From the IMG/VR virus record IMGVR_UViG_3300033149_001517, positions 1-43,204 of that record: a DNA stretch of 43,204 nucleotides; one strand, given 5' to 3'. Both the position numbers and the translations under genes were made by a program. The DNA comes from a virus. Below are positions 1-37,017 of this stretch, in pieces. Under the pieces are notes generated by a model, which saw only the letters and a program-made list of their open reading frames with translations, had not been told where the DNA came from and did no database searches. Positions within the stretch are counted from its first letter, which is position 1. Every line of letters starts with the position of its first letter.

Positions 1-137
1 TCACTTACACTATACACTACCACTATAAAGCCTTTTGACTCAAGAACATACAGAGAGAGACTAACAAACAGTAACACAATAAAACACATACACTCCACTA
101 TATAATGACCTATTCTTTTAACCCTTTTTTTCCTATT

Positions 138-162
138 TAGTACTATATAGACTAAATAGATT
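138..162. repeat. 25-bp direct repeat, copy 1
   Basis: The segment begins TAGTACTATATAGACTAAAT and matches 494-518 at 23 of 25 positions; the copies differ only at the 9th and 10th bases. The copies lie 356 bp apart in gene-free DNA. It could be a regulator- or initiator-binding site. Confidence 0.7.
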
Positions 163-396
163 CTTTCGTAACCCTTTGTTTAACACTCTTTAGAAGCTTA
201 CTCTTATATGACTCTTTACTCTACTACTAACATATAAACATAATGGTAAAGGTATTATTATTGGTACTAATACTCCTAGTAAGACTATCATACTCTTTAC
301 TATGTTCCTATGTACCATTACACTATAACCATAACTATGAGTGTTCCAATAACCAATACTTCTTATGTCTTTCATACTACTATTAAGAGTATATCA

Positions 397-477
397 TTAT
401 ATAAACCTAACGTATGACTATTATATAATAACAACACTATTATATAAAACTAATTATAATTATATAAATTATATAAA
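397..477. repeat. Cluster of five TTATATAA(A/T) nonamers
   Basis: TTATATAAA occurs at 397-405, 440-448, 460-468 and 469-477, and TTATATAAT at 421-429. The same nonamer is the likely TATA box at 42125-42133 for the wHTH regulator gene. The cluster could be stacked promoters, or an easily melted origin element. Local A+T richness makes some copies expected by chance. Confidence 0.5.
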
Positions 478-493
478 TCATAATAAAACTAAA

Positions 494-518
494 TAGTACT
501 AAGTAGACTAAATAGATT
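494..518. repeat. 25-bp direct repeat, copy 2
   Basis: The segment begins TAGTACTAAGTAGACTAAAT and is the partner of 138-162 (23 of 25 identical). It lies between the TATA-like cluster and the first gene. Confidence 0.7.
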
Positions 519-634
519 ATACATAATAGTTACGGGGTAGTAGTCAATAATGATTATGTGTATTGGTATAGTTAGTGGGGTTAGAAATTTTATATTATTT
601 TCAGTTTTGAGCTTATTTGCACTTATATACTAAA

Positions 635-643
635 TGATATAAA
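635..643 (+). promoter_or_regulatory. Putative TATA box of the first rightward gene
   Basis: ATATAAAAG lies about 35-40 nt before the ATG at 677. That predicts a transcription start a few bases to 15 nt before the start codon, so a short leader without a strong Shine-Dalgarno site. Confidence 0.4.
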
Positions 644-676
644 AGTATTTAAAGTATTAAGGTTATACTATATTCT

Positions 677-955
677 ATGAGTTTGAACAGTTTCCCAATT
701 AAGGTTGATCAGTTGGATATCGATATCTTACATTGGTATGTATGTAATTATGGTTTGGTTGATAGTCGTGGTAATGTAATGAGTAAGGGTATGGTAGTTA
801 ATCATATCGTTCGTGACTTTGTAGATACTGTCGCTGGTCCTGACTTGCTATCCTCTTCTATTGATAAAGAAGGTATTTTGGTTACTGAGTTCTTGGAGAG
901 ATGTAAGTTCAATAAGCGTATTGAAAAGATAATGGGTGAGAAGAATGATGAATGA
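677..955 (+). CDS. Hypothetical protein, first gene of the rightward arm
   Basis: Encodes 92 residues, mostly helical in character, with no motif I recognise. It has no cysteine pairs typical of the virus's zinc-finger proteins and no membrane segment. There is no clear Shine-Dalgarno site; the short distance from the TATA-like element at 635 suggests a very short or leaderless message. As the first gene of the packaging/structural arm it could be a small-terminase-type DNA-binding protein or a regulator, but nothing in the sequence proves either. Its end overlaps the next small gene. Confidence 0.7.
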   Translation: MSLNSFPIKVDQLDIDILHWYVCNYGLVDSRGNVMSKGMVVNHIVRDFVDTVAGPDLLSSSIDKEGILVTEFLERCKFNKRIEKIMGEKNDE

Positions 956-1070
956 TAGACAAAGAGTATTAATATCTGCATTACAAAATCAAATAAATAT
1001 TAAACGACAAGAGATTATTTTCTTACAGGAAGAACTTCAAAGAATAATGGATGATGATGATGAAAAGTAA
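945..1070 (+). CDS. Small coiled-coil-like protein (41 aa)
   Basis: A short gene that reads MMNDRQRVLISALQ and continues as one amphipathic helix rich in Gln, Glu and Ile, ending in an acidic DDDDEK tail. GGTGA at 935-939 is a plausible ribosome site; the ATG at 948 (8-nt spacing) is an equally good start. It overlaps the 3' end of the preceding gene and the 5' end of the next one, the packing usual for real genes in this genome. Function unknown; a short coiled-coil oligomeriser is the most that can be said. Confidence 0.6.
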   Translation: MMNDRQRVLISALQNQINIKRQEIIFLQEELQRIMDDDDEK

Positions 1071-1269
1071 AATAGATAAATATTTGGAATGTAGAGGAAT
1101 GACTTATGGTACTGGATTTGAATCTGAAAAAGAGATAAGAAAATTCATCAAAGATAATAAAATAGAAGATGAATTTGGTGATTTAGAATGTGGTGGACTT
1201 GTATTTAAGAAAGCTAAATCTGGGAGAAGATATATTCAGTTTACCCCAGGAAGATGTTATATTGATTAA
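1060..1269 (+). CDS. Hypothetical protein (69 aa)
   Basis: Reads MKSKIDKYLECRG from the ATG at 1060; three in-frame ATGs just upstream (1051, 1054, 1057) are alternative starts in an ATGATGATGATG run. The protein is small, charged and soluble, with cysteines in LECRG, LECGG and GRCYID but no paired CxxC motif. Its codon use favours AGA and A-ending codons, unlike the neighbouring packaging genes, so it may be a late addition to the operon. No family recognised. Confidence 0.6.
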   Translation: MKSKIDKYLECRGMTYGTGFESEKEIRKFIKDNKIEDEFGDLECGGLVFKKAKSGRRYIQFTPGRCYID

Positions 1270-1271
1270 AG

Positions 1272-1988
1272 ATGAATGATATATTAGATGATGTTGAGGA
1301 AGAAGTGGTATCTGCTGAGAAGGATAGGAAATCCTTGGTTAAGTTCAATAGTGACCGTGATATAGATACCGAGTTAAAGGACGAATATATCTACGCCACT
1401 CCTGACACAAGACATTTCAAGTTACCTAAAGGTATCGCTGGTTTACATGGTTGTATGCATTGTGACTGGGCCGATACAAAGGAATGTAATTACTTAGATA
1501 GTAATGGTATGACTAAACCTCCTGTTGACAAGATATGTATTAAGAAGGATAAGTTCCTGAAACTCTTCTCCCGTAAAGCTTACTATAAGAGTATCGCTGA
1601 ATGGCAACGTGATTTCAACCTTAGTATGTTGAATAAAGAGATACTCCATAACTACACTACTATGAACCGTCTCAATCGTGAACTGAACGATTATATTAAG
1701 AAAGGTACTGGTGAGGTAGAACGTGGTGAATTAGAGTTCAAAGATTACCGTAAACTGGTTATGTCTATGCAGAAGGAGATAACTGGTATTAAGGGGCAAT
1801 GGCTTGACATGTTGTATAATAGTGTTAAGTATGATGATAAACAGGTAGATCGTGACACACCTAAACAGATTAACATTGACAGTCACCAGACACTTGATTT
1901 AACGAGTATCAATAACATTATCAGGGGTAAACATCTCCCTGATGAGAAAGTGGTTGATACCGACTATGAAGAGGTAAAAAATGAATGA
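1272..1988 (+). CDS. Zinc-site protein upstream of terL, possible small-terminase equivalent
   Basis: Encodes 238 residues with a likely zinc site formed by C61, C64, C72 and C89 (GCMHCDW, KECNY and KICI). The N-terminal 30 residues are acidic, and residues 95-185 are long helices. It lies two small steps before terL, where tailed viruses usually carry the small terminase subunit that recognises DNA, and it shares terL's codon style (frequent CGT). The call as a terminase partner rests on position only; the sequence does not show a classic TerS helix-turn-helix. Its stop overlaps the following small gene. Confidence 0.65.
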   Translation: MNDILDDVEEEVVSAEKDRKSLVKFNSDRDIDTELKDEYIYATPDTRHFKLPKGIAGLHGCMHCDWADTKECNYLDSNGMTKPPVDKICIKKDKFLKLFSRKAYYKSIAEWQRDFNLSMLNKEILHNYTTMNRLNRELNDYIKKGTGEVERGELEFKDYRKLVMSMQKEITGIKGQWLDMLYNSVKYDDKQVDRDTPKQINIDSHQTLDLTSINNIIRGKHLPDEKVVDTDYEEVKNE

Positions 1989-2109
1989 TATAATAAAAAT
2001 AAGACAAAAGATTTCAGAATTATTAAAAGACACAGATTATGAGGGAATTATATATAAAAAAGGTATGTTACTATCTGAATTGATAAATAAAGATTATAAG
2101 AAAGAATGA
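1981..2109 (+). CDS. Small hypothetical protein (42 aa)
   Basis: Reads MNDIIKIRQKISELLK and is predicted helical throughout. A strong ribosome site, GAGGT at 1971-1975, lies 5 nt before the ATG. The stop overlaps terL as ATGA (2106-2109), so translation of terL is probably coupled to it. Codon use is A-rich compared with terL. Function unknown. Confidence 0.65.
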   Translation: MNDIIKIRQKISELLKDTDYEGIIYKKGMLLSELINKDYKKE

Positions 2110-3674
2110 AAACGTATAACTATCTTGACATTGACTGGAACAAGGACATTAATCGTGATTCCCTTAACCATGACATTTACAATGCTAAGCTGGACTTATG
2201 CAAGGCGTATGTTGATGGTAAGATAAACAACCCTTACACTATCCAATCTCTGTTCCTTGACTTAACAACTTTCTCTTACTTACAATTCAGACTGAACGGG
2301 GAACGACTTTCGTTATACCCTTACCAGGATATGATATTGAACGATCCTCACCGCTTCAAGATATTCCGGGCAGCTAACCAGATAGGGAAGTCACTAGGGT
2401 TAGATGTCAAGGCAGCTCGTAATCTATTGAAAGATCATGGTAAAGCACATAATGAAGCTATCGTATCCAAATCATTACCCCAGAGTACACACCAGATGCG
2501 TAGGGTTAAATCTATCCTGGAAACTATGCCTCACATTAACTGGAAAGAGGTCAAGGGTAGTAGTGATAGTATGAGTGTTATCTCTGTCAATCATTACTAC
2601 GCTAAAGATGATAAGGAATATAAGAAAGGCACTACTAACTTAAAATATACTAATTTACTAATATGTGCTCCTTGCACAGAGGGTTTACTGGGTTACGACT
2701 TACACGAGTTAAACCTGGACGAGTTCGAGTTCTGGGACGTTGACATTGGTTACTTCTTCAAACAAGTAGCTCAACCCCGTACTTACCATACTAAAGGTAG
2801 GATCACTATCTTTTCTAACCCAAACGGTGCTGATACGTATGTAGCTGAACTGGAGAAACAATACTTGAAAGATGGTATTACACGGAAATGGCATGTGTAT
2901 GTATTCGATTACCTTGACTGTCCTGGTAACACTCAGGAGGAGTATGACGAACTGAAACACGAATTACCCCGAGCAGAGTTCGAATCGACTGTAGCCGCTA
3001 TCCGTACTATGTCAGACAGGTATTATTTCACTGGTGACGAGATAGAGAAGAGTCTTGACATGTCACTGGATGAATTGAAGATGATCGGCAAACAACCTTT
3101 CTTCTTCCTTGACGTAGGTAGTAAACACGACCAATCATACTTATGCGGTGGGTTTGTTGAACCTGACGAGAAGGACGATAGATTCTGTCATATCTATATC
3201 CCTATCTTGAAAGCGTACCCGGTTGGTTATCCAATCAGTCGAGTGGTAGGTAGTGAAGTTAATGTTGATGATGGTTGGCATCATGAGAAGAGTGTGAAGG
3301 AATATTTAGATGAATGGAGTAAGAATGGTATTGTCCCTACTTTCGGTGTTGATGTGACAGGGAACAGTGGTATCTCTCCTTTGTTCAATGCGATTAATAT
3401 CTACCCCCAAGATATAACCTTTAGCGGTCCTGTCAAGTCAGGGATGTTCCAGAGGTTCAAATATTTCATGGAGAAAGGTTTATTACACCGGGTTAAGAGT
3501 AAAGAGTGGGATTACCAAGCGAGACATATAATCATGAAGAAAAGTATGCGTGGTTATTTAATGGTTCATCACGAGAATGAGAATGACTTAGATGATAGTA
3601 TGGATGCAACAGCAGGTTTAATCTTCCTAGCCGATAATCCAGTTGCAGTAACACCAACAGTGAGGTTTTTTTAA
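2106..3674 (+). CDS. terL: Terminase large subunit (packaging ATPase and nuclease)
   Basis: Motor that pumps DNA into the prohead and cuts it. The 522-residue length is typical. The ATPase half has an adenine-binding YPYQ at 71-74, Walker A AANQIGKS (89-96), Walker B LNLDE (202-206) and a coupling motif in FSNPNG (236-241). The RNase-H-like nuclease half shows the acidic residues D336 (FFFLDVGSKHD), D416 (FGVDVTGN) and D497/D500 (DLDDSMDATAG). It starts by ATGA overlap with a 42-residue gene. The portal gene lies downstream after several small cargo genes. No truncation or missing catalytic residue is seen. Confidence 0.95.
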   Translation: MKTYNYLDIDWNKDINRDSLNHDIYNAKLDLCKAYVDGKINNPYTIQSLFLDLTTFSYLQFRLNGERLSLYPYQDMILNDPHRFKIFRAANQIGKSLGLDVKAARNLLKDHGKAHNEAIVSKSLPQSTHQMRRVKSILETMPHINWKEVKGSSDSMSVISVNHYYAKDDKEYKKGTTNLKYTNLLICAPCTEGLLGYDLHELNLDEFEFWDVDIGYFFKQVAQPRTYHTKGRITIFSNPNGADTYVAELEKQYLKDGITRKWHVYVFDYLDCPGNTQEEYDELKHELPRAEFESTVAAIRTMSDRYYFTGDEIEKSLDMSLDELKMIGKQPFFFLDVGSKHDQSYLCGGFVEPDEKDDRFCHIYIPILKAYPVGYPISRVVGSEVNVDDGWHHEKSVKEYLDEWSKNGIVPTFGVDVTGNSGISPLFNAINIYPQDITFSGPVKSGMFQRFKYFMEKGLLHRVKSKEWDYQARHIIMKKSMRGYLMVHHENENDLDDSMDATAGLIFLADNPVAVTPTVRFF

Positions 3675-4016
3675 ATGAATGAGAAAGATCAACAGGGTTG
3701 CAAAAGATGTGGTCATTGTTGCTATTATATGGTTTATAAGGATAATATACCTAAATTGAAGAAGTGTAAACATTTAGTGCGGTTCAGTACAGGCAAGACA
3801 TTATGCCGGATGTATAAGAGAGCTATCCAGGAACGAACTAAACATGGTCATTGTATTGATAAGTATGAACTGGGTGAAGAGACTAAGATGATATTTTGTA
3901 CCTGGCGTAAGGATGGTCAATGGAATTATAAGGGTTGTCCATTCAATGTGGAAGGATTACCTTATTTTGAAGATTATATAAAAAGTATCGGGTTGTGTGT
4001 ACCATGGGAAAAGTGA
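3675..4016 (+). CDS. YkgJ-like cysteine-cluster (CxxCxxCC) protein
   Basis: Encodes 113 residues with C9, C12, C15 and C16 (CKRCGHCC) followed by C31, C44, C60, C75, C88 and C108. This fits the YkgJ/UPF0153 family, whose cysteines are thought to hold iron-sulphur or zinc; the biochemical role is unknown. GAGG at 3662-3665 serves as ribosome site, and the ATG follows terL's stop directly. A second protein of this type is encoded on the - strand at 33309-33728. Why a virus carries two is unclear. Confidence 0.7.
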   Translation: MNEKDQQGCKRCGHCCYYMVYKDNIPKLKKCKHLVRFSTGKTLCRMYKRAIQERTKHGHCIDKYELGEETKMIFCTWRKDGQWNYKGCPFNVEGLPYFEDYIKSIGLCVPWEK

Positions 4017-4339
4017 AAGATTATATCTTGAATAATTGGTTATTCAGGAAATTATACAGTATAAAGTTTTATTTAGATTTAGGCGTTCAACAGGTATCAT
4101 GGTTCATTGGTAAGTTCCCAGAGATAATGGCTATTGTGTATCTTCTGGAGAAAGGAGGTATCACTCTCAATATTACTCAGATAATTATTATGGCCGGGAT
4201 ATCTTTCATTATATTAACAATTGCTGGGTATGGTATTAAACATACTGGATTGTATGATGTTGAGAGATATGTTGATGCCAGTAAGAACCCGGTCACTAAA
4301 GAATTACTGGAAGCTGCTCGTAAGGTGAATAGAAAATGA
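4004..4339 (+). CDS. Membrane protein with one or two TM helices
   Basis: From the ATG at 4004 the protein reads MGKVKDYILNNW. It has a moderately hydrophobic stretch near residues 30-50 and a clear membrane helix near 56-78 (IIIMAGISFIILTIAGYG), followed by a charged cytoplasmic-type tail. A GTG at 3995 is a less likely start. The 3' end overlaps the next gene by ATGA. Function unknown. Confidence 0.65.
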   Translation: MGKVKDYILNNWLFRKLYSIKFYLDLGVQQVSWFIGKFPEIMAIVYLLEKGGITLNITQIIIMAGISFIILTIAGYGIKHTGLYDVERYVDASKNPVTKELLEAARKVNRK

Positions 4340-5007
4340 ATAATGAATTATTGGAAAATATATTTAATAAACAGGAATTCGTCAAAGTGAAAGTGAAAGA
4401 TAAGAAAGGGAAGGTAATCACTAAAACTATCAGGAACAATATTTTCCGGCCAGTCGATAATTTCAAGGAATATAGTAAACGCTGGGATAGAGTTCATAAG
4501 TTTGTTAAAGTGAAGATAGTTCATACTGCTTTGAAGATATTGGATGTTCTGATAGGGAAATATGTCTTACAAGGGATTGATGATATCCCTAAAGAGAACT
4601 GTAATAACCTGATACGTATCAGTTATCATAGTTATATGAAAGGGATAGAAGAAACTTTCAAACGAATAATATATGATCCAAATATAAAAAATAAACTAGG
4701 TTATTATAAAAATAAGATTACTCGTAATGATTCTTGGTTAACTTGGTCGAAAGATAACCCTCATTGTCGTGCTCGTGTATTACTATTACAATTATGGTTG
4801 ACTGAGGTATTGGAAGATACTTTCGATCGTGGTGTTATGGACATTGCCATGTTGGAGTCATACCATCAGATACATAAACTGTATGATGGTAAAGTACCGA
4901 CTGTTGAAGAGTATCGTATGTATGATAGTGGAGAAGCGAGAGATATAAAATATTTCGTTGACACAATTAATGTTCCAGTATGGGATAAGGAGGAAAAGAA
5001 AAAATGA
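4336..5007 (+). CDS. Hypothetical protein (223 aa)
   Basis: A soluble, basic N-terminal half (many Lys in residues 14-35) is followed by a helical body with conserved-looking aromatic motifs such as WLTWSKDNPHCRAR. No known fold or active site is recognised. It uses CGT-type codons like terL and portal, and overlaps both neighbours by ATGA, so it probably belongs to the old packaging/head operon rather than being a recent insert. Confidence 0.65.
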   Translation: MNNELLENIFNKQEFVKVKVKDKKGKVITKTIRNNIFRPVDNFKEYSKRWDRVHKFVKVKIVHTALKILDVLIGKYVLQGIDDIPKENCNNLIRISYHSYMKGIEETFKRIIYDPNIKNKLGYYKNKITRNDSWLTWSKDNPHCRARVLLLQLWLTEVLEDTFDRGVMDIAMLESYHQIHKLYDGKVPTVEEYRMYDSGEARDIKYFVDTINVPVWDKEEKKK

Positions 5008-5303
5008 ATTTTGAAAAAGCTATAAAAGCATTAAAAGAAGGAAACCAGATTGTTAATGAAAATTGGAATGGATTAAAAACAGGGAAGATAATGTATATCA
5101 GACAACAATTACCTGATGAACATAGTCTAAACACAGAACCATATTTAGTATTTGTATCTGGAACATTTTGTAAAGTAGGTAGTTTAAAAGAAGATGTTAA
5201 GTATGAAAACGAAACTGAGACAGGTGGTTGGGCATTTAAAAGATTCCCATGGACACCAAGTGCATTAGATATGTATTCAAATGAATGGTTAATAAGGTGT
5301 TAA
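5004..5303 (+). CDS. DUF2829 / Tad2-like protein, candidate anti-Thoeris signal sponge
   Basis: The 99 residues match the DUF2829 family pattern from end to end: MNFEKAIKALKEG at the N-terminus, a WNG at 21-23, MYI at 30-32, and PWTPSALDMYSNEW near the C-terminus. Tad2 proteins of this family bind and sequester the cyclic ADP-ribose-type signal made by Thoeris TIR enzymes, and some bind other cyclic nucleotides. The middle of this protein is shorter and more divergent than in characterised members, so ligand choice cannot be predicted. It overlaps the preceding gene by ATGA and is A-rich in codon use (AGA rather than CGT), which suggests later acquisition. Family assignment is firm; anti-defence function is inference. 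Confidence 0.8.
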   Translation: MNFEKAIKALKEGNQIVNENWNGLKTGKIMYIRQQLPDEHSLNTEPYLVFVSGTFCKVGSLKEDVKYENETETGGWAFKRFPWTPSALDMYSNEWLIRC

Positions 5304-5305
5304 AA

Positions 5306-5593
5306 ATGATGTATAAATGTAAGAAGTGTGGATTTAAAGATGTTATGATGGGGATACAAGCTCATTTAGTGTATAACAAGTGTGGTGCTGGTGATGATTA
5401 TGATTTCAAGACTAGTAACATAAAAGATTATGCTACAATTATAACTCAACAACAGTTTGATAAGGAATTGAGAGAACTGAGTGAGAAATCTATTAAAGAA
5501 CGACAGATAAAGAAATCGAAGAAGGAAGAGACAGAGATTAACAAGGAAGGTAAGAAGGTTACCAAGAAAGGCAAGTTTGAGGTTGAAGAATGA
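5306..5593 (+). CDS. Zinc-finger-like small protein with charged tail
   Basis: Starting at the ATG at 5306 (GGTG 6 nt upstream), the protein begins MMYKCKKCGF with a CxxC pair and a further Cys near residue 26, followed by a long lysine- and glutamate-rich helix. It may bind zinc incompletely or as a dimer. An upstream in-frame ATG at 5285 lacks a ribosome site. Function unknown. Confidence 0.6.
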   Translation: MMYKCKKCGFKDVMMGIQAHLVYNKCGAGDDYDFKTSNIKDYATIITQQQFDKELRELSEKSIKERQIKKSKKEETEINKEGKKVTKKGKFEVEE

Positions 5594-6126
5594 AGAGTAT
5601 GAAAACAGAGAACATTTCTTTGAGTGCTGAAGAGATAAGGAAACAGATTGATAAGAAGAAGAAAAGTATTAAACAGAGTGATATGGAAGTACCAGGAGGG
5701 TTCCAGAAATCAACTGAGGAAGAAGAGAAGAATATTATCGAAGGGAAATATAAAGAAAGAATATTTATGCAGGAACAATTACGTAGTGCCGAGATAGGTC
5801 AACAGTATGTGTGGGCCGAAGCTGATACTCTGGAGAACATCCATAAGAAGTACGATACTATCAAGGATAAACCTAAATGGTACGGTATTGATATGCCTAA
5901 GAAGGTACTTGTGTGTGAGTTCAATACTAAAGTACAAATATGGAAACAAGCAATGACTAAACGTAACCGATATTATGATGCATTGAAGAATGTAGGATTT
6001 ACTAAAACTGAACTGGAACCCTTATTGATTGATGGTAAAATGATTTCTGATAATAAGATATTGAAGAAGTTAGAAGAAGATCATAACAAGAAACAATTGA
6101 AGAAGGATGATGTAGATGCTGTCTAG
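5590..6126 (+). CDS. Hypothetical charged helical protein (178 aa)
   Basis: Highly charged, with a Lys/Glu-rich N-terminal third (residues 10-60) likely to form coiled coil, then a more globular region with several Trp residues. GAGG upstream and ATGA overlap with the previous gene support the start. Position just before the portal gene suggests a head-associated role, but nothing in the sequence identifies one. Confidence 0.6.
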   Translation: MKSMKTENISLSAEEIRKQIDKKKKSIKQSDMEVPGGFQKSTEEEEKNIIEGKYKERIFMQEQLRSAEIGQQYVWAEADTLENIHKKYDTIKDKPKWYGIDMPKKVLVCEFNTKVQIWKQAMTKRNRYYDALKNVGFTKTELEPLLIDGKMISDNKILKKLEEDHNKKQLKKDDVDAV

Positions 6127-6127
6127 A

Positions 6128-6457
6128 ATGAAAAACTTTATAAGTGACTTCAAACATAAGTTAAAGGTATATAAAGATAAAATCATCAGTATCCATGTTT
6201 TCCTTGCAGAGACAACAGAAGCTAGTATGTATAAAAATTGGAAAACAACTGATAGAAACCTTTACTTTATGTTCCTCGGTTGGTTACTTGAGAACATATT
6301 AATGATTGGTTCATTGATAACAATATCTCTCAAGGTATTGTTTAATTATCACCATGGATGGTATTCCGTATTAACACCATTTTTGTATGGTTGTTTATAT
6401 TGGTTAATCCTGGAGACAATTAAGAAGATCAATCAAGCTATAAGGAGTAAAGAATAA
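6128..6457 (+). CDS. Membrane protein with two TM helices
   Basis: Reads MKNFISDFKHKLKVYKDK from the ATG just after the previous stop; an overlapping ATG at 6116 would add four residues. Two hydrophobic helices lie near residues 46-68 (MFLGWLLENILMIGSLITI) and 78-98. No family recognised. It sits directly before the portal gene. Confidence 0.6.
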   Translation: MKNFISDFKHKLKVYKDKIISIHVFLAETTEASMYKNWKTTDRNLYFMFLGWLLENILMIGSLITISLKVLFNYHHGWYSVLTPFLYGCLYWLILETIKKINQAIRSKE

Positions 6458-6459
6458 AG

Positions 6460-8313
6460 ATGCCAACAACTTTCCAGCAAGTGTTCACAGCGATAGGTCA
6501 ACGGAACAATACCCCAATCCAACGTCATTTACCAATGATTAATTCTGTGTCAGCTTCTATCAACGGGTTCATCTATGAAGTTAATCAGATGAATCGTAAG
6601 AAGAAACTGATGCAATGGTTCAAGTCTATCCCTGAACTGACTGCGTTCGTTACTAAGATAGCAAGGAATGTAACTTCTAAGTTTCATTTTGAACCGCTTA
6701 ATAATACTGTGTCTGGTAGGAATAAGATATTAGCTGCTAATAAGTTTGTGTTACAGAATCAGGTGCGTGACATTATGTTTTCTCAGTTAGTTGATATAAT
6801 CGCTACTGGTGATGGTTATGGTTGGAAAGGTAAACTGAAGGATAAGATTGTCAAGGAAGCTATCAAGAAAGCGTATGACAAATTAATGCCTACTCAGTTA
6901 AAGACTGAACTGAAATCTGTTGAGAATGTTTATATCAATAAACTTTATCGGGACATGACTAAGAATGAAGATATTAGTTCTGCTGATGGTGTTGATGAGG
7001 CATTATTAATCCCAAGGAAATATCGTTATGTTCCTTCTACCACTGTTGAGAATATCCATGATAATTACGATTTCAAAGGTTATAATCATATAGTTGGTGG
7101 TAAAGACGTATTCTTTAATCCTGACGAGATGATCCATTATACTATGATGAATGTTGATGGGAAACCTAACGGGTTCACTTGTGTCGAGGGTATTATTGTT
7201 CAATTGGAATTATTACGTTTCATGTGGCAAAACATGTTAAGTATCCAACAGAATGGTGGTATGCCTGACAAGATAATCATCGCTAAAGATTTACAAGCTA
7301 ATACTGAATCATTCAAACGAATGGAAGAATTACTCCAAAAATATAAACTGGTAGATAATAAGCATGGGAACATGTTATTCACTGGTGATATAGATATTAA
7401 AGATATTCGTAGTATAGAAGATATGCAGTTTAAAGAACTGGGATTATATATAACTGGTGTATTAGCTATGCAATGGGGTATCAGTAAAGAATCTATCCCT
7501 TTCATTGTGGGTGGTACTAATACTTCTGTTGAAGGTGGTGGAGCTGCTGAAGATGAGTATGCTGAAGTGGTTGAATGGATGCAGACTATATTCGCTGAAG
7601 ACATGAATACTCAGTTATGGATGCCTTATTTTGGTGTCAAGATAGTGTTTGATAATCCTAATTTACAACGTGATATCCGGAAAGAAACAGCTAAGATGAA
7701 TAAGCTTAATAACTTATTAACAATGGATACTATCCTTTTGAAAGCTGGTAAACAATTAACTGAACGGAAACGATTAGAAGCGTTAGGTATTGATGAGACT
7801 GATGTGGAGGAATGGCAACCTGATCCTCAACAGGAACTACAATTGGAACAAGCAAACCAATCAGCTGAGGGGATAGGTACACCTGGACAACCTTCTCAGA
7901 ATCCAAAGAGTAAGAATGATGAGAATCGTTCTGCTAAGAAGAAACTTGAGCAGGAACAGACAATCGCTAGTCGTGGTAAGAAACCGAGTGGTACTGGTGC
8001 CAAATCAGAACGTGATAATGAAAGTTCTGTAGAAATAAAAGAATTAGATTCCACTTCAGAAGTATATTATAAAGAATTGATTGGTAAAGATACAATGTCA
8101 GTTAATTATGATATGTTTTTAAAATTATATAATGAAGATAAAACACGTGACCAAGGAGGAATGTTACGGATATTCATGCGTGTTAATGATATTTATACTT
8201 CTTTAATTTATAAGAGTACAGATTTCATTTACAAGACAGCTATCAAGAATGAAGAGATTGATAATGGTAGTGTTAGTTTTATGAATTTCACAGGGAACTT
8301 ATATAGACTATGA
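6460..8313 (+). CDS. Portal protein
   Basis: Dodecameric channel at the head vertex through which DNA enters and leaves. Encodes 617 residues with portal-family features: the clip/stem regions around residues 220-330 (DEMIHYTMMNVDG, GGMPDKIII) and the conserved segment LAMQWGISKESIPFIVGG near 335-352. The C-terminal 150 residues are low-complexity and charged, then a short ordered tail, longer than a minimal portal. It follows the terminase and precedes the protease-capsid gene, the standard order. Assignment comes from recognisable portal sequence plus position. Confidence 0.85.
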   Translation: MPTTFQQVFTAIGQRNNTPIQRHLPMINSVSASINGFIYEVNQMNRKKKLMQWFKSIPELTAFVTKIARNVTSKFHFEPLNNTVSGRNKILAANKFVLQNQVRDIMFSQLVDIIATGDGYGWKGKLKDKIVKEAIKKAYDKLMPTQLKTELKSVENVYINKLYRDMTKNEDISSADGVDEALLIPRKYRYVPSTTVENIHDNYDFKGYNHIVGGKDVFFNPDEMIHYTMMNVDGKPNGFTCVEGIIVQLELLRFMWQNMLSIQQNGGMPDKIIIAKDLQANTESFKRMEELLQKYKLVDNKHGNMLFTGDIDIKDIRSIEDMQFKELGLYITGVLAMQWGISKESIPFIVGGTNTSVEGGGAAEDEYAEVVEWMQTIFAEDMNTQLWMPYFGVKIVFDNPNLQRDIRKETAKMNKLNNLLTMDTILLKAGKQLTERKRLEALGIDETDVEEWQPDPQQELQLEQANQSAEGIGTPGQPSQNPKSKNDENRSAKKKLEQEQTIASRGKKPSGTGAKSERDNESSVEIKELDSTSEVYYKELIGKDTMSVNYDMFLKLYNEDKTRDQGGMLRIFMRVNDIYTSLIYKSTDFIYKTAIKNEEIDNGSVSFMNFTGNLYRL

Positions 8314-9617
8314 CTGCTAAAGAAGTTCCAGGACAAAATGGAGTGTCGGGACCTTTTCAAAGGGTACTAGCTGATATAAGAAATTCTGATGGGAGTAGTA
8401 TAGGCCCACAAGATCCATTCCCAACAGATGGGGATTCTGTTTATGTGAAAGATTTAGATATTCCAAATTGTGATAATGGGGATTTTAGCGGGGTTATTAC
8501 TGATTATTTTGATTCATTGAAAACTGTTAATTCAAATACAACTTCTGATAATCCAAAGATAATTAAATTATGGTTTAAGAGAACAATATATTCGCATGGG
8601 ATAGGTTTCGGATGTGACAATCTTGCAAAAGGTTTTGGTGCTTCTATCACAATCAAATTATTAGGAAGTGGAGAAGCAGTTAGATATACAAAATCATTCG
8701 CACCAAGTGACCCTAATAGTTTTTTAGCAGAATTTGGTCAAAAGGCTTTTAATGGAGTTATACTAGAATTTAATACTGCATCAGAAGTAGGCCTTAGTAA
8801 TTTAACAATAGCAAAATCAACTGAAACAAATTCTTCTTTACAAGGTCAAGACCCTAATGGAGACACACAAAATGTACAAGTTACTACAGATGGATTTTTA
8901 TCTATAAGTGATAATTCAAGTGGTTTGGCTATTGCACAAGGTCTTGTAAGTGGCGCTTCTAATGTTTCTAAATTTGGTCAAAATGCAGATATAGGAACTG
9001 GAGCTTATGAAGATATTTGGGACGTTGGTGGAACTTATCCTTATCCAACTAATGGTACAGCACCAATAACATATATTGATAGTGATTCAGGAGATACTGA
9101 ACCAGTAGAAGTCCAAGGATTAGATATTAATGGAGAATTAACAATTCAAACAAAAACATTAACTGGGACAACACCAGTTGAACTTGATACTCCTTTATGG
9201 AGAGTTTTTAGAATGAAGAATATGGGAACATCTGATTTTGTTGGAAATATTCAAGCTATCAATACAGCAGACACAGTTATTTATGCACAGGTTCAAGATG
9301 GTAATAACCAAACCTTAATGGCTTTATACACAATACCTTTAGGTAAAACAGGATATTTACAACAAGGGACAAACAGCCTTATTGGTTCAAATAGAGATTA
9401 TACAATTTCAGGTCGTATGATGATGAGACCTTATGGTGGTGTTTTCCAACTTAAAAGAACTTTTGGATTACAAAGTGATGGAACAAGTTTTATGATTATG
9501 CCTTTTCCAGTGCCAGGAAAAGTTCCCGCATTGACAGATATTAAAGTTAGTGCCATTAGTAGTTCCGCAGGTGGAGGATTAAATACTACTTTTGAATTAG
9601 TGTTAGTGGATGATTAA
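8310..9617 (+). CDS. Structural protein, probable head decoration or fibre
   Basis: A 435-residue beta-rich protein. The C-terminal 230 residues show a pattern common in uncharacterised tailed-phage virion proteins: DIWDVGGTYPYP, then VEVQGLDINGE, then a tLtGttpVeL strand, then VPLGKTGYL-like (here IPLGKTGYLQQG). The position between portal and capsid suggests a head decoration or head fibre protein. It starts MTAKE by ATGA overlap with the portal gene, like several other virion genes here. The codon style (AGA, ACA, CAA) differs from portal and suggests separate origin. Confidence 0.6.
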   Translation: MTAKEVPGQNGVSGPFQRVLADIRNSDGSSIGPQDPFPTDGDSVYVKDLDIPNCDNGDFSGVITDYFDSLKTVNSNTTSDNPKIIKLWFKRTIYSHGIGFGCDNLAKGFGASITIKLLGSGEAVRYTKSFAPSDPNSFLAEFGQKAFNGVILEFNTASEVGLSNLTIAKSTETNSSLQGQDPNGDTQNVQVTTDGFLSISDNSSGLAIAQGLVSGASNVSKFGQNADIGTGAYEDIWDVGGTYPYPTNGTAPITYIDSDSGDTEPVEVQGLDINGELTIQTKTLTGTTPVELDTPLWRVFRMKNMGTSDFVGNIQAINTADTVIYAQVQDGNNQTLMALYTIPLGKTGYLQQGTNSLIGSNRDYTISGRMMMRPYGGVFQLKRTFGLQSDGTSFMIMPFPVPGKVPALTDIKVSAISSSAGGGLNTTFELVLVDD

Positions 9618-9629
9618 AAATACTTAGTA

Positions 9630-9640
9630 AACTTTATAAA
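9630..9640 (+). promoter_or_regulatory. TATA-box promoter of the protease-capsid gene
   Basis: AACTTTATAAA ends 30 nt before the ATG at 9670, which fits an archaeal TATA box with a short 5' leader. The whole stretch to the start codon is nearly duplicated before the gene at 16488. Confidence 0.75.
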
Positions 9641-9669
9641 CCCCTAAACACATAATATAATGTAAGAAA

Positions 9670-11787
9670 ATGGCAAAGACTAAATATAAAACAAACAATA
9701 AATCTATCCAGTGTAACATTGGTGGTATTGAGATTAAAAGTCTTGAGGATGCCATGACTATTGGGGGATTCATTTCTACTGATCATTTAGATGAAGGATT
9801 CATTAATACTGCTGATACACAAGGAGAATTACTCGTACCTGAAGCACCTGAAGGAGCTCACATCAGAGATAGGTGTGATTTAGAATTATTAAACGAATGG
9901 GGAACTGAACTTAACGATGGTGTCCCACGAGCTAATAAAGTAAGTATCCAACATGATAGAGGTGATCCAGTAGTAGCAGGTGTATCTGAGAGGGGTACAA
10001 CAAGTGTCATAACTTTGCCAGATGGGATTCATCATGGATTATATACTGATTCAATTATTGATCCTACACACGATGAATTTGAAACTACTAAGACACGATT
10101 AGATATAGGAACTTATGATGGTTTTTCTATAGAATTTAATAATGCAAATTACGACTTGAAAGAGATGGATGGTTATTATGAACGTACACTTAAAACAGGT
10201 ACAACATTGAAAGGGTATGCAATAGTACCTAGGCCAATGAATGAGTATGCAATGCGTTTGAAAGAAATAGATAAGAAATTAACAGAACAGAAAACTAATT
10301 TAAATTTCAAGAAAGATAATATTAATACAATGGAGGATAATAAAATGACAGACAATAAACAAGAAACAGAAACACCTGTTCCTAAAGAAGAAGTTAAATC
10401 AATTTCATTTACAGAAACACAAATGAAAGAATATTTAGATTTGAAGAAGGCCCAGGAAAAGAAAGCTGACGAAGATAAGATGGTGGCTTTTAAACAAGCT
10501 ATCATGGACGAAGTCAAAGAGCTTACTAAAGATGAAAAAGTAGAAGATAAAGCTGGTACAATTAAAGATGCTGATGAAAAGAAAGAATCAGTTGAGATGG
10601 TACAGTTTAAAGAAGCAGTTGGTTGTAAACGTTCTTTCAAAGCAGGTTCAGTTAAGTATGAAGCATCAATTGATATGCAATGGAAAGCAGCAGGTAAACT
10701 AGCTGATTCATTAAAATTAACTGACGGTGGAATTAAAACTACTAGATCAATCGAGTTTAGAAAAGATGGTTTCAAGAATTTCCAAACTAACGGTAGAATG
10801 TTAGAAATGAAAGGACTGGGAATCACTACTAATCAAGGAAGCGAATATTACTTATCAGCTCCTGAACTACAAGATGTATTCGATCCAGTAATTTATAATA
10901 CACTTAACCAGGCAACAACTACATGGGGTTTACTTAATAAGGATGACTTCAGTACTAAAGGTAATAACCAAGTACAGTTCAAAGTAAAGACAGCTATTAA
11001 CAATTCACTTGATACATCAACAAATGGATTTTATACAGGTAATGCAGTAGTAACTGGGAACGGTACACGACTACAAGCACAGACTAAGTTCAAGAAACAA
11101 GCTGTTGGAATTGAAGTAGATGGTGACATGATCGCTGCTGCTAAAGGTGGACCAGTGGGAGATGTATTTGCTCTTGAGGTTGCTTCAGCTACAGAAGATT
11201 TGTTATCTTATGCTAACATACAACTATTCGCTGAGACTGGATTAGAGACAGGAGCTCAACCAATTGGTTTTGAGTATATCACTGACAGTGCAGGTAATAC
11301 AAGTCTTTATGGATATACAAGAAGTGCTCATGTAGGATTCCTTAATCCAACAAGTGCAGGAGATACTTACATTAATGGTAACTCAGCTGATGTTAGTATT
11401 GGTAATTTGAGAGCTGCTAAAAGACAAGCTATCAAACTAGGTGCTGATAAGAATAACTTATTCTTTGTATGTGACCATATCCAGGGAGATAAGTTCCGAG
11501 GAATTTATGATGCTATCCAGAGAGTAGCACCTACTAGTTCAAGGTTTGGATTTGAAGGTATGCTTGAGATTGATGGTATCCCTATCTTTGAAGATAAGGA
11601 TTGTAATGATGATGACTGGTTCTTAATTGACGGAGCTACACATAGACTAGCTATCTGGGTACCACCTACACTTGAAATGTTAGGTAAAGATTCAGATGCT
11701 GACAAAGGATTCATAAAAATGTACTGGTGTGCTTACAACTTACACCCAATTAGAATGGTACAGATTTACGGAAACGCAATAAGTTAA
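9670..11787 (+). CDS. Prohead protease-scaffold-major capsid fusion protein
   Basis: One 705-residue protein carries three usual head genes. Residues 30-195 are an HK97-type prohead (U35) protease with H95 (VSIQHDRGD) and S153 (YDGFSIEFN), ending in GYAIVPRPMNEYA. Residues about 200-330 are a charged helical scaffold-like segment. Residues about 380-705 are an HK97-fold capsid protein with helical spine and P-domain features (LRAAKRQAIKLGADKNN, GIPIFEDKDC). An internal ATG at 10345 with its own GGAGG could also make scaffold-capsid alone. It has its own promoter and a hairpin/T-tract behind it, as expected for the most abundant product. Confidence 0.9.
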   Translation: MAKTKYKTNNKSIQCNIGGIEIKSLEDAMTIGGFISTDHLDEGFINTADTQGELLVPEAPEGAHIRDRCDLELLNEWGTELNDGVPRANKVSIQHDRGDPVVAGVSERGTTSVITLPDGIHHGLYTDSIIDPTHDEFETTKTRLDIGTYDGFSIEFNNANYDLKEMDGYYERTLKTGTTLKGYAIVPRPMNEYAMRLKEIDKKLTEQKTNLNFKKDNINTMEDNKMTDNKQETETPVPKEEVKSISFTETQMKEYLDLKKAQEKKADEDKMVAFKQAIMDEVKELTKDEKVEDKAGTIKDADEKKESVEMVQFKEAVGCKRSFKAGSVKYEASIDMQWKAAGKLADSLKLTDGGIKTTRSIEFRKDGFKNFQTNGRMLEMKGLGITTNQGSEYYLSAPELQDVFDPVIYNTLNQATTTWGLLNKDDFSTKGNNQVQFKVKTAINNSLDTSTNGFYTGNAVVTGNGTRLQAQTKFKKQAVGIEVDGDMIAAAKGGPVGDVFALEVASATEDLLSYANIQLFAETGLETGAQPIGFEYITDSAGNTSLYGYTRSAHVGFLNPTSAGDTYINGNSADVSIGNLRAAKRQAIKLGADKNNLFFVCDHIQGDKFRGIYDAIQRVAPTSSRFGFEGMLEIDGIPIFEDKDCNDDDWFLIDGATHRLAIWVPPTLEMLGKDSDADKGFIKMYWCAYNLHPIRMVQIYGNAIS
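10332..10347 (+). promoter_or_regulatory. Internal ribosome site and in-frame start for scaffold-capsid
   Basis: GGAGG (10332-10336) precedes an in-frame ATG at 10345 by 8 nt. Start here gives a 480-residue product beginning MTDNKQETETP, exactly at the protease/scaffold boundary. An alternative ATG at 10330 lies inside the ribosome site. This parallels nested scaffold genes such as lambda C/Nu3. Confidence 0.6.
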
Positions 11788-19536: not shown

Positions 19537-19854
19537 ATGGAACAGAAAAAACAATTTGTGGAAGAGATTAAAGGAAAGATAGACAAGAGTATTCATATTG
19601 CGAGAGTACCTAAACATACTAAGACTTGGTTCATTGATTATGCCAATGATTACTTTGAAGGTGATTATGGGCATTGTTTGAAGCATGTGACTGATACGTT
19701 CAGAGGAATGACACCTATTGGGTATGAAGAGTTACAGGTACAAGTGGATGAATTACGTAATGAGTTAGAACTTGTTAAGGGATTACTTAATAAGAAAGAA
19801 ACAAAAGAAGATGTCAAGATAATGGCAAACGGAAAAGAAAAGAGAAGGAGTTGA
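19537..19854 (+). CDS. Small helical protein with C-terminal coiled coil
   Basis: About 105 residues from the ATG at 19537 (an ATG at 19528 lies inside the possible ribosome site). Residues 15-50 (IARVPKHTKTWFIDYANDYF) look like a small ordered domain; residues 62-90 form a Leu/Glu coiled coil. Placed between tail tube and tail chaperones, it may assist tail assembly. No family confirmed. Its 3' end overlaps the inserted HNH gene. Confidence 0.55.
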   Translation: MEQKKQFVEEIKGKIDKSIHIARVPKHTKTWFIDYANDYFEGDYGHCLKHVTDTFRGMTPIGYEELQVQVDELRNELELVKGLLNKKETKEDVKIMANGKEKRRS

Positions 19855-20420
19855 ATAGAATTAATAAATATATACGACCAATTAAAATTTGTAAAGGATG
19901 TGGTGAAAGTAAACCGCATAGAGCATTTGGTCTTTGTAGTCATTGTTATGATTCAATAAAATATGAAACACTTAAAGAAAAAAATAAAATAAAAAATTTA
20001 AAAGAAAGAAAAATAACTGATGATATTGTATTTAGATATTATACGGTTAGAAGATATACAACAAAAAAAATAGCAAAAATATTAAATATAAGTCAGACAG
20101 GTGTAAGACAAAGATTGGAAAGAATTGGAGTTAAATTAAGAAAAGATAATATACCTTTTGGAAATAAAAATAATTTAAGACATGGTTATTATTCAATAAT
20201 ATCAACATATAAAAAATCACATCCTACTTGTGAAATTTGTGGTTGGAAGTGGGGTGTTGATTGCCATCATATTAAACAAATTAAAAATGGTGGTAATAAT
20301 AGTATTAATAATTTAATTTGTCTTTGTCCTAATCATCATAGATTAGCAGATAGACAAATTTTAAGAATAGAAAAACAAAATGGTCAATTATCAATAATTG
20401 ATCTTAGAAAAATAGAATAG
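19851..20420 (+). CDS. HNH endonuclease (free-standing, homing type)
   Basis: 189 residues from a TTG start with GGAG just upstream. Order: N-terminal zinc ribbon (CKGCG...CSHCY), an AUMOD-like helix-turn-helix (TKKIAKILNISQTGVRQRLERIG), then the HNH site CEICGWKWGVDCHHIKQI...NLICLCPNHH. The catalytic His pair and all zinc cysteines are present, so it looks active. It interrupts the tail module, is far richer in A and AGA codons than its neighbours, and is flanked by an 8-bp direct repeat, all signs of insertion. Confidence 0.85.
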   Translation: MNRINKYIRPIKICKGCGESKPHRAFGLCSHCYDSIKYETLKEKNKIKNLKERKITDDIVFRYYTVRRYTTKKIAKILNISQTGVRQRLERIGVKLRKDNIPFGNKNNLRHGYYSIISTYKKSHPTCEICGWKWGVDCHHIKQIKNGGNNSINNLICLCPNHHRLADRQILRIEKQNGQLSIIDLRKIE

Positions 20421-23038: not shown

Positions 23039-23925
23039 TGGAAAAGGGAAGTACATACTGGACATTTAAACGTGTCATAAAGGTATCTGCTGGGATTGGA
23101 ATACCAATCATAGCATTATTTACTTATCTTGCTTTAAGTGGTGCTTTAAATGTCACTAGTTATAGTCATACTGAACATTGTGCTGGGACTTCTTCAGACT
23201 TATGTTATTTATATTTCAATGCTACTCCTACTAAAACTATTTATATCCAAGCAGATAGTCAGTGGTTAGAAACTACTCCCCCGATTAAAACTATTAAATT
23301 ACAACGTACTTGGGGTACAGGTTGGAGGACACTTGATTTAACTAAACCATGGTCAAAAACTGTTAAGTATGCTTTAAAACTTAATAAAGGACAAGAGTAT
23401 CAATTTAGATTTATAGCTGAGAAGTATGATCCACGAGATATAATTAACTGGAGTATTAATCCAGAAGGTGAATGGGGTGAAGCATTACCAATATATAAAT
23501 TTGATACAGAGGAAGTGATATATTTCGATGAGATAGAACATACTAAGATTAAATCTATTTGTATTAATAAATCTGAGCAAGTTAAATGTGATGATAAATA
23601 TGATATTAGTAATATAACTGGTTGTTATTTAATAACTCAAGAATGTAATGATTATGAAGTGATTGATTATATTGAAAAAGTACAAAAGATTAAAATTGAA
23701 AAGATTGAAAATTCTGATTATATACAATATGCAGAGGATAGATTTAATTATAAAAAAGAAGGGTTTGAATGTAAAAATAATGCTTGTGATAAATGGTGTG
23801 ATAAGTTGGAAGATGGTAATTGTATAGATTTACCTGATAGTAATGGTGATGGTATTTGTACAAGTGGTGAATCTGATTGTATTGAACTACAATATACTAA
23901 TAAAATAGAGGTAAAATTAAAATGA
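23038..23925 (+). CDS. Membrane-anchored extracellular protein with calcium-loop motif
   Basis: 295 residues with one TM helix near 15-36, then an outside domain of beta strands with several Cys (CAGTSSDLC; CKNNACDKWC) and sequons. Near the C-terminus DSNGDGICTSGESDC is a calcium-loop-like motif of the type found in archaeal surface proteins. It overlaps the LamG gene by ATGA. Possibly a virus-encoded surface or receptor-exclusion protein, or an exported virion part; not resolvable here. Confidence 0.6.
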   Translation: MEKGSTYWTFKRVIKVSAGIGIPIIALFTYLALSGALNVTSYSHTEHCAGTSSDLCYLYFNATPTKTIYIQADSQWLETTPPIKTIKLQRTWGTGWRTLDLTKPWSKTVKYALKLNKGQEYQFRFIAEKYDPRDIINWSINPEGEWGEALPIYKFDTEEVIYFDEIEHTKIKSICINKSEQVKCDDKYDISNITGCYLITQECNDYEVIDYIEKVQKIKIEKIENSDYIQYAEDRFNYKKEGFECKNNACDKWCDKLEDGNCIDLPDSNGDGICTSGESDCIELQYTNKIEVKLK

Positions 23926-26702
23926 AGAAATTATTTTTATTAGTATTAATATTAATATTATTATCTAGTTTTGGTTATGCTGATATCTCTACAAGTGATG
24001 TAATATCGTATTATAAAGCAGATACGAATGGAAGTTATCCTGATGCTCATAGTTCTAATAATGGTTCAGCTATAGGAGATCCAACATTTACAACTTCAGG
24101 TAAAATTGTTAATGCATATATTTATGATGGTAATGATTATCATGATATTCCTGAAAGTATTGTTAATGGTGTTGGTCAAGATGGTGACATTGTTTTCGTA
24201 GGATGGTTTTATCCAACTACCACTGGTAAAGCTTTTTTAGGTTATGGGATAGATAGTACAAATTATGGTTTTTGTAATGTTCAAGCGGATAACACTATTA
24301 GATGTATTAATAAAATCTCTAATTCATGGCAAACAGCCACAGTAACAACAAATACTGTAACTCAGAATTCATGGAATTTTATTGCTATTCGTTATCATGG
24401 GACAAATATTGATATGCAAATAAATAGTAATTTAGAAACAAATATGACTAATGGAGCTAATAATAGAATTACTGAATGGACAAGTATTAATTCTTTAGGT
24501 ATTGGTGCTGCTGGAGTTACTGGTGGAGTTCAAGGAGATTGGGTAGGAAACATTGATGAACCTGCATTTTATACAGATTTAACTACTACTAAAATAAATG
24601 ATTTATATAATTCAGATAATGGATCACAATATCCTTTTTCAGTAGATATATTAAATATAACTGAATTATTACTTATATCACCATCCCCTGACCAGAATCT
24701 TACTCTATCAGGTATAATTGGTAATACAACTGATACAACCCCATCTTTCCAATTAAAGACTAATATTGCAGCAACATCATTCGATATCAATGGAACAACA
24801 GCGTGTACTAATAATTCAGAAACAAGGACTATTTGGACTTGTACTCATTCAACAGTATTAAGTGTAGGTATGCATAATATAACAATGAATGGAACGGATG
24901 GTACTACTAATGTTAATATAACTAGAGAAATTAATGTTAGTTCTGTTCCGTCAATATCTATTAATCTATCTTTATCAGATTTCACTAAGAATATAACTGC
25001 TGAACTAGGTAGTAAGATATTGATTGATGCTGATATAGATACAGGTTACATAGTATGTGTTGATATTAATCATACTACTTATGGTACTAATTATAGTTGT
25101 GCAGTTAACACAACAATATTCAATCTAAGTATGGATTATTTCAATGAATTACAATATACACGAGAAGTATGTTATCAGGAGTTTGCTAATTTATCATATG
25201 ATTGTGGTGCTGTTAGTTACACAGGAGGTAATCCTTATTTAGTTATTGATGTGGGCGCTTCTAATATAGTTAACGGAAGTAACTCATATGATGGTAATTA
25301 TTCAACTTTTGCTTATCAGACAGGTATAAGTGACCCGGGATTTATATATATTAATTATACTAAACCTACTGATGCATTAAGGAATTCATTGTTCCAGATA
25401 AAGACAGGTACTACTTTCCAAAATTATACTATCCCTGAAGCTTGTTTTCTAAATAGTCCTTTACAGTTCAGAGTAGGTATATTCCTTAATACTCTTTATA
25501 ATGGTCAAACAGTTAATGCTACACAGATATCTTGTAATCCTACAACAGGTCCTTCTAAAATAATCTCGACTATTCTAGGGACATATGATTTTTATGATGA
25601 AGCAATGTATTGGTATCTTAGTGATGATTCTCTTACTATCCCTGTCAATACAACTATTAATCTAACATCTCATCAATATGCTGAAGTATTAAATCTTAGT
25701 TTATATCTAACTGCTCTCGATGATAATGATACATATCCTTCCAATGTGAAGATATATATTAATGATACACTCAGTAATAATATAGGTGATGTGGTAGGTA
25801 CACTGGTTGAGTTTGAAGATAGTTCCACTTCAATGAATGTAACTTTCACTGATGAAGAAACACCGTTAATTGGATATTTTAAACTACCCAAGAACACAGA
25901 TGTACAAACCGCTACTTTCAATATCACTGGTTATAATTATACTTATCTTCAAGTTGAACCAGATAACAGGACTGTTGATGATAATAATAATCAAGACATT
26001 TATCTTTATACTTATTATGAAAAGAAAAATAGAACTATTGTTAACTGGGAATATAGTTTAGGGACTGTTACAAATTACACCCCTAGTAGTGCTTGTATAA
26101 ATGCTAGTAATGATTGGATGTTATTTTCTTTTAAAGGAATAGATGGTAGTTCCACATCAACAGTTGAAGCTAAATGTAATGGTGTTAACATAGCAACAGA
26201 TAATGGAGCTGACGGATATTATAGTAAGAGTGATACAAGTTTCGCACACGGTAGAGATACTATTAAAGATGGTGATTATACAACTTTTGGTTGTCCAGTA
26301 CAGATAGGATTCGGTAATGTTTTCTGGGCAAGACAATGGGTGAGAAGTGGTGCATCAATTAATTGTGAAGATTTGAATATTGCCACAGTATATGATTCAC
26401 AGGTATGGTGGGAAAGTTTCACACTTGATCCATGGATTCAGATAGGGGAATTAGATGGTGTTAATGAATGGGATTATACAGGATTATATAGTGATGAAGA
26501 AGAAATAAATGATTTCAGTACTCAATTAGAAACTTATTTATTTAATTGTGTTGCTGATGAACATGGATATTGTAATGTGCCAGTGTATGTTTATTCTAAT
26601 ATAGGAGGGATAATTCAGATTAATAATATTAATATTGATTATACTGTCGACATTATGATTTCCTTGATAATAGTAATGATGAAACAATTATCCCAATCAT
26701 AA
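23922..26702 (+). CDS. Secreted LamG-domain surface/adhesin protein, 5' part of a split gene
   Basis: 926 residues as read. A signal peptide (20 residues ending GYA) is followed by a LamG/concanavalin-like domain to about 235 (VISYYKADTNGSYPDAHSSN, FVGWFYPTT, IDEPAFYTDL), then Ig-like beta domains rich in sequons. The last 17 codons after about 26651 are out of character: in the -1 frame the same DNA encodes the natural continuation, which runs to 27268. LamG domains bind sugars, so host-surface binding is likely. One base lost near 26651, or a reading shift, explains the split. Confidence 0.75.
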   Translation: MKKLFLLVLILILLSSFGYADISTSDVISYYKADTNGSYPDAHSSNNGSAIGDPTFTTSGKIVNAYIYDGNDYHDIPESIVNGVGQDGDIVFVGWFYPTTTGKAFLGYGIDSTNYGFCNVQADNTIRCINKISNSWQTATVTTNTVTQNSWNFIAIRYHGTNIDMQINSNLETNMTNGANNRITEWTSINSLGIGAAGVTGGVQGDWVGNIDEPAFYTDLTTTKINDLYNSDNGSQYPFSVDILNITELLLISPSPDQNLTLSGIIGNTTDTTPSFQLKTNIAATSFDINGTTACTNNSETRTIWTCTHSTVLSVGMHNITMNGTDGTTNVNITREINVSSVPSISINLSLSDFTKNITAELGSKILIDADIDTGYIVCVDINHTTYGTNYSCAVNTTIFNLSMDYFNELQYTREVCYQEFANLSYDCGAVSYTGGNPYLVIDVGASNIVNGSNSYDGNYSTFAYQTGISDPGFIYINYTKPTDALRNSLFQIKTGTTFQNYTIPEACFLNSPLQFRVGIFLNTLYNGQTVNATQISCNPTTGPSKIISTILGTYDFYDEAMYWYLSDDSLTIPVNTTINLTSHQYAEVLNLSLYLTALDDNDTYPSNVKIYINDTLSNNIGDVVGTLVEFEDSSTSMNVTFTDEETPLIGYFKLPKNTDVQTATFNITGYNYTYLQVEPDNRTVDDNNNQDIYLYTYYEKKNRTIVNWEYSLGTVTNYTPSSACINASNDWMLFSFKGIDGSSTSTVEAKCNGVNIATDNGADGYYSKSDTSFAHGRDTIKDGDYTTFGCPVQIGFGNVFWARQWVRSGASINCEDLNIATVYDSQVWWESFTLDPWIQIGELDGVNEWDYTGLYSDEEEINDFSTQLETYLFNCVADEHGYCNVPVYVYSNIGGIIQINNINIDYTVDIMISLIIVMMKQLSQS

Positions 26703-32044: not shown

Positions 32045-32168
32045 CTTCTTTCTCCATTTTATATTTCCTTATAACATTCCCACAATAACAACATCGTAAG
32101 ATAATAGTATCTCTGTGATGTTCCATCTTATTCCAGGTATTCTTACAATAACATTTATTATCAATCAT
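32034..32168 (-). CDS. Zinc-ribbon microprotein (44 aa)
   Basis: Reads MIDNKCYCKNTWNKME and later LRCCYCGNVIRKYK: CxC at 6-8 and CCxxC at 26-29 form a likely zinc ribbon. The ATG overlaps the stop of the SegE-like gene as ATGA, and its end overlaps the next gene. One of several tiny zinc proteins in this arm. Function unknown. Confidence 0.6.
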   Translation of the reverse strand: MIDNKCYCKNTWNKMEHHRDTIILRCCYCGNVIRKYKMEKEDGR

Positions 32169-33728: not shown

Positions 33729-33733
33729 TTTCC

Positions 33734-36982: not shown

Positions 36983-36997
36983 TGTTCCCTCCAATAC

Positions 36998-37017
36998 ATT
37001 AGATAAATACATCTAAT
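36998..37017 (-). promoter_or_regulatory. Palindrome upstream of the HNH gene
   Basis: ATTAGAT-AAATAC-ATCTAAT, a 7-bp stem with a 6-nt loop, lies 16-35 bp before the HNH start, next to a TATATATTA element. Could be an operator or the 3' end of the upstream transcript. Confidence 0.4.

Follow-up and report, generated by a model that had tools for sequence, protein, structure and literature searches.

The ligand pocket of Tad2 proteins forms between the chains of a homotetramer. Tad2 sponges define which nucleotide alarm signals hosts use. The pocket for gcADPR is lined by the beta1-beta2, beta3-beta4 and beta4-alpha3 loops, and an insert after beta2 forms a cyclic-dinucleotide site (review, PMC12043709). 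The Tad2 proteins of Hgm and Spt also sponge cyclic dinucleotides (PMC12043709), 3'3'-cGAMP is not bound by SPO1 Tad2 (PMC11722364), and hisADPR is the ligand sponged by Myroides Tad2 (PMC13299392). Anti-Thoeris genes are among the commonest annotated anti-defence genes of groundwater phages (PMC12259885). Our literature search, which was of partial coverage, found no paper on Tad2 in archaeal viruses.

The window analysed here is the whole stretch of 43,204 bases of one virus record, and a single gene in it matches the Pfam family PF11195 (Tad2-like, the former DUF2829). The gene and the motif preceding it are as follows.

5004 to 5303, plus strand: Tad2-family (PF11195) gene, 99 aa, identified by Pfam, PDB profile search and Foldseek
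4988 to 4992, plus strand: GGAGG, a ribosome-binding-like motif read directly, 12-16 bases upstream of the Tad2 start

The first-pass annotation had reported a DUF2829 pattern, A-rich codon use and an operon overlap for this gene, and all three were borne out. The profile search gave 43.2 bits against PF11195 (E 5.7e-11), well over the Pfam cut-off of 25 bits, with a match covering residues 1-97 of the protein and profile positions 1-72 of 73. The open reading frame starts with ATG and overlaps the gene before it by 4 bases (ATGA). It is real, and its product is a member of the PF11195 Tad2-like family. The protein also matched two PHROGs families of unknown function, and no match was obtained in the NCBIfam and PADLOC searches. 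The frequency of A at the third codon position is 0.495, versus 0.26-0.30 in the flanking genes, and that of G+C is 0.18 versus 0.31-0.37; the A value for 5306-5593, taken out of frame, was disregarded. The A-rich third positions fit a later arrival of the gene, yet they are suggestive only, as similarly extreme codon composition is found in other genes of the record, e.g. the HNH gene at 19851-20420.

The structure of a single chain was predicted with AlphaFold2 from an alignment of 56 sequences; since this included the relatives, the prediction depends in part on the family assignment. The overall pLDDT was 81; most of the core exceeded 90, and the loops were poor. As the first-pass annotation had proposed, the model was compared with solved structures, and the confident PDB matches of the predicted monomer were all Tad2 structures. 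For a single chain, neither of the two refuting outcomes named in that annotation was obtained. Foldseek returned 19 confident matches (probability 1.00, E 3e-4 to 2e-3), every one of them SPO1 or Myroides Tad2, including complexes with gcADPR isomers and with hisADPR. The TM-scores by target length were moderate (0.55-0.78) because of the extra loops of the protein. Matches in the Foldseek viral library were mostly Tad2-like domain proteins, and an hmmsearch of the PDB with a family profile of 56 relatives retrieved the Tad2 chains of SPO1, Mod, Spt and Hgm at 5e-22 to 7e-19. The core of the modelled protein is thereby shown to have the Tad2 fold, at the level of a prediction.

The protein is among the most divergent PF11195 members seen. 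Among named phages, full-length homologues with 30-34% identity were found in CBW1004C-Prop1, PaBG and an Acinetobacter phage, and plasmids contributed two weak homologues. A scan of viral contigs with the protein as single query found nothing; only when the query was aligned with two phage homologues did the scan yield Tad2-relative loci, 80 in number. The consensus of the relatives reads MNFGxA..LK.G..v.R.GWNGkG....ELQvPDEHSKMT.PYi.....vPWLASQTDmLaeDW. At the 33 positions conserved in at least 80% of relatives, the protein keeps 21 residues, among them the family anchors N2, F3, G13, W21, N22, G27, P82, W83, S86, D89 and W95, and has changed the other 12, which include R18, G20, G29, K42, M43, Q87 and T88. 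In genome-scale searches with the Pfam model it scored 39.2 bits, while in 43 relatives the main Tad2 gene scored 68-101. A tree of 60 Tad2 rows failed to place the protein, and its end branch measured 3.8 changes per column versus a median of 0.3. The nearest sub-clade is marked by a PDEHSKM motif that is absent from all four comparison Tad2s (SPO1, Mod, Spt and Hgm), and we found no solved or tested member of it.

The divergence includes two insertions.

5070 to 5081, plus strand: four extra residues (23-26) following W21-N22, in the loop predicted between beta1 and beta2
5169 to 5210, plus strand: long insertion (residues 56-69) in the loop predicted between beta3 and beta4 (residues 56-78)

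Both insertions face more than 80% gaps in the relatives (54 for residues 23-26). Residues 23-26 are absent from all four aligned PDB Tad2s and lie in a DSSP loop between strands E16-18 and E28-35, and residues 56-69 fall in a low-confidence region of the model. In a joint alignment with the four solved Tad2s, the beta3-beta4 stretch, from the strand to PW, comprised about 24 residues versus 4 in SPO1 and Mod Tad2, and the beta2-beta3 link 10 residues versus 23-24. The short link is common to the whole sub-clade, and it indicates that the long post-beta2 insert of HgmTad2 and SptTad2 is absent from this protein. As a result of the long beta3-beta4 loop, WNG and PW are 58 residues apart, the longest distance seen (23-55 in the 54 viral relatives, mostly 31-40). 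The first-pass annotation had described a shortened middle part that might mean a different ligand. This holds for the beta2-beta3 link and not for the middle as a whole, and as stated we rejected it: the loop between beta3 and beta4 is much enlarged, and the one between beta1 and beta2 has gained four residues. By topology, both enlarged loops would fall at the side of the gcADPR pocket. The idea of a different ligand therefore survives on account of these enlarged pocket-side loops, which may tune the ligand, and not on account of a short middle.

The Tad2 gene sits between the genes for terminase and portal, in the following setting.

2106 to 3674, plus strand: terminase large subunit (PF03237 2.7e-6; PHROG terminase 6.7e-12)
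4336 to 5007, plus strand: upstream flank, head-operon gene of unknown function, with homologues in related contigs L014 and L015 at 27-29% identity
5306 to 5593, plus strand: insertion partner gene, 95 aa, without family match
5590 to 6126, plus strand: downstream flank, head-operon gene of unknown function, with homologues in L011, L012, L014 and L015
6460 to 8313, plus strand: portal protein (PHROG portal 1.5e-10)
9670 to 11787, plus strand: probable major capsid protein, whose N-terminus may be a fused protease-like part

The probable capsid protein had no Pfam or PHROG match; its gene follows that of the portal, and it is 26-53% identical to proteins that related virus contigs encode at the corresponding position. 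These contigs share terminase, portal and probable capsid with the record. The homologues of both flanks adjoin in L014 and L015, with nothing in between, and in L011 and L012 the homologue of the upstream flank is missing as well. Since the flanks adjoin in relatives, the Tad2 gene and its neighbour at 5306-5593 are a lineage-specific accessory insertion into the packaging/head operon. The neighbour's product carries an N-terminal CxxC...H...C pattern of the Cys/His zinc-ribbon-like kind and ends in a Lys/Glu-rich tail; it could be a partner in the function of the Tad2 gene. After the terminase gene, positions 3675-4016 (plus strand) encode a small cysteine-cluster protein that is conserved at this place in related viruses.

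Tad2-like genes were also seen in two related viruses. G001 encodes, outside the head operon, a 130-aa PF11195 protein (L002:839-1231, minus strand; 28.4 bits) that has a C-terminal extension of about 50 residues and is hardly alike to the protein described here, and G007 encodes a 216-aa protein (L031:1276-1926, plus strand) with half a Tad2-like domain, covering profile positions 2-31 and scoring below the cut-off. PF11195 was found in none of the other related records. Repeated separate gain of an accessory PF11195 gene among related viruses would fit this distribution. We also compared the placing of Tad2 relatives in the 20 phage contigs where a terminase was detectable as well. In 11 of these, which are partly related, the gene lay on the same strand as the terminase gene with midpoints less than 5 kb apart, versus 4.0 expected from random placing with 70% same strand assumed (p ~0.0008); no excess was present within 3 kb, and we regard the proximity as a trend only. 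Sigma-70-like sites in positions 1-9700 numbered 52, not above the 47.1 ± 6.6 of shuffled sequences, a count that says little in AT-rich DNA.

In our reading the protein most likely acts as a sponge, expressed late, for an ADP-ribose signal of TIR origin, as in Thoeris. We consider it probable that this divergent Tad2 binds the nucleotide signal of a host TIR enzyme and so allows infection to continue. It would assemble, probably, as a homo-oligomer, and its ligand would be a glycocyclic or amino-acid-linked ADP-ribose produced by a TIR-domain enzyme of the host; the bound signal would be kept from its effector, and infection would go on. The family and fold matches, the retained anchor residues, the absence of the insertion from relatives, the different PF11195 gene that G001 has elsewhere and the terminase trend speak for this reading; the 12 changed positions, the lack of a solved structure in the nearest sub-clade and the low confidence of the modelled loops speak against it. 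Thoeris of Staphylococcus and Streptococcus senses the major capsid protein (PMC12578639), a report with which the terminase trend agrees. Because the capsid protein is a trigger in at least some bacteria, production from the head operon, presumably late, would by analogy be timely, with the sponge being made when capsid triggers Thoeris. The first-pass annotation had suggested a Thoeris- or CBASS-like target; the first half agrees with this reading, while the CBASS half is weakened by the absence of the beta2-side dinucleotide insert.

We considered the possibility that the pocket has been remodelled for a nucleotide signal other than gcADPR or hisADPR, belonging to an undescribed host defence. 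Such a change is favoured by the insertions, which fall in two loops that topology places beside the reported gcADPR pocket, and by the loss of conserved residues, and known Tad2s already vary in ligand (gcADPR, hisADPR, cyclic dinucleotides). Yet drift also yields insertions and low conservation, and we hold this alternative to be unlikely, if the most serious one. It is more doubtful still that the protein kept the Tad2 fold, lost its anti-defence work and became a virion or head-assembly accessory. Its gene does lie within the terminase-portal operon, but related viruses have the same operon without a Tad2 gene, and the Tad2-like gene of G001 is outside the operon on the opposite strand. 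An AcrIIA7-like inhibition of type II CRISPR-Cas through the shared DUF2829 fold is very improbable: AcrIIA7 (9kzr) is retrieved by the family profile at 5.6e-18, and the PDB title of one Tad2 entry calls it an inhibitor of type II CRISPR, but the single protein reaches only E 0.23 against AcrIIA7, and the confident Foldseek matches are all Tad2 chains, AcrIIA7 not among them. Hardly any weight can be given to a cyclic-dinucleotide sponge of the HgmTad2/SptTad2 type, which is of the same family, as the beta2-side insert reported to make the dinucleotide site is absent and, judged from sequence, a role against CBASS by the known route is unlikely.

The first-pass annotation had called the virus apparently archaeal, a guess that is neither proved nor refuted. 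A scan of GTDB genomes with TerL and with an MCP alignment found no relative at its level of sensitivity, and none of the TerL, portal, capsid and tail proteins matched any of 50,697 named phage records. Archaeal hallmark families and cell-wall hydrolases were not found at the thresholds used, and neither Rfam nor tRNA searches of the record gave a hit. Several secreted-type proteins are rich in N-x-S/T sequons. Those of the tail region have 37 versus 18 expected in 23922-26702 (plus strand) and 8 versus 1.9 in 26879-27268 (plus strand), suggesting that they are glycosylated or host-surface-like; this fits archaeal glycoproteins and does not prove an archaeal host. Residues about 197-435 of the product of 8310-9617 (plus strand) are 34-38% identical to cyanophage tail-fibre-like proteins, despite the location of the gene between portal and capsid, and this match suggests exchange with bacterial phages. 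The YopX-type gene is common to many bacterial phages. The metagenome number of the related contigs L002 and L003 is that of an Antarctic lake study.

Some further genes deserve mention. The HNH endonuclease genes at 19851-20420 (plus strand), which carries a helix-turn-helix part, and 36617-37012 (minus strand) have 23% G+C and are likely mobile. The PHROG label 'NAD synthetase' (phrog_447) at 32165-32749 (minus strand), which would have suited an NAD-defence story, was set aside as probably a mislabel of a GIY-YIG SegE-like protein. Positions 33309-33740 (minus strand) encode a small cysteine-cluster protein akin to the zinc- or iron-chelating CxxCxxCC family.

A very divergent Tad2 whose pocket-side loops are altered, carried by viruses of a group without cultured relative, offers a handle on the immune signal of its host. 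If this host were archaeal, the protein would point to TIR-type signalling defence in archaea. That a Tad2 with an enlarged pocket side sequesters an undescribed ADP-ribose or nucleotide signal in a virus of a DPANN or other archaeon is a long shot, which, if true, would place signal-sponge warfare outside bacteria.

As it stands, the protein extends the range of the Tad2 family and leaves its concept unchanged. With the PDEHSKM sub-clade (e.g. CBW1004C-Prop1 QVW08790.1 and Pseudomonas phage PaBG YP_008433507.1) it shares 32-34% identity over the full length and the N-terminus, WNG, QxPDEHS and PWxxSxxD, but it has the four-residue insertion between beta1 and beta2, its beta3-beta4 loop is longer, and R18, G20, K42, M43, Q87 and T88 are missing from it. 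AcrIIA7, the type II CRISPR inhibitor, is reached through the family profile, the single sequence giving only the E value cited above. HgmTad2 (8kbi) and SptTad2 (8wjd), which sponge both gcADPR and cyclic dinucleotides, belong to the same family and carry the long beta2-side insert that is missing here. SPO1 Tad2 (8smf, 8smg), a gcADPR sponge acting against type I Thoeris, has the same fold (Foldseek probability 1.00) and about 20% identity; its beta2-beta3 link has 23 residues and its beta3-beta4 turn 4, versus 10 and 24 here. The Tad2 of Myroides odoratus (9eib), a hisADPR sponge acting against type II Thoeris, is likewise of the same fold and family and differs in loop lengths as that of SPO1 does, while a WTPS motif near the C-terminus is present both in it and in the protein described here.
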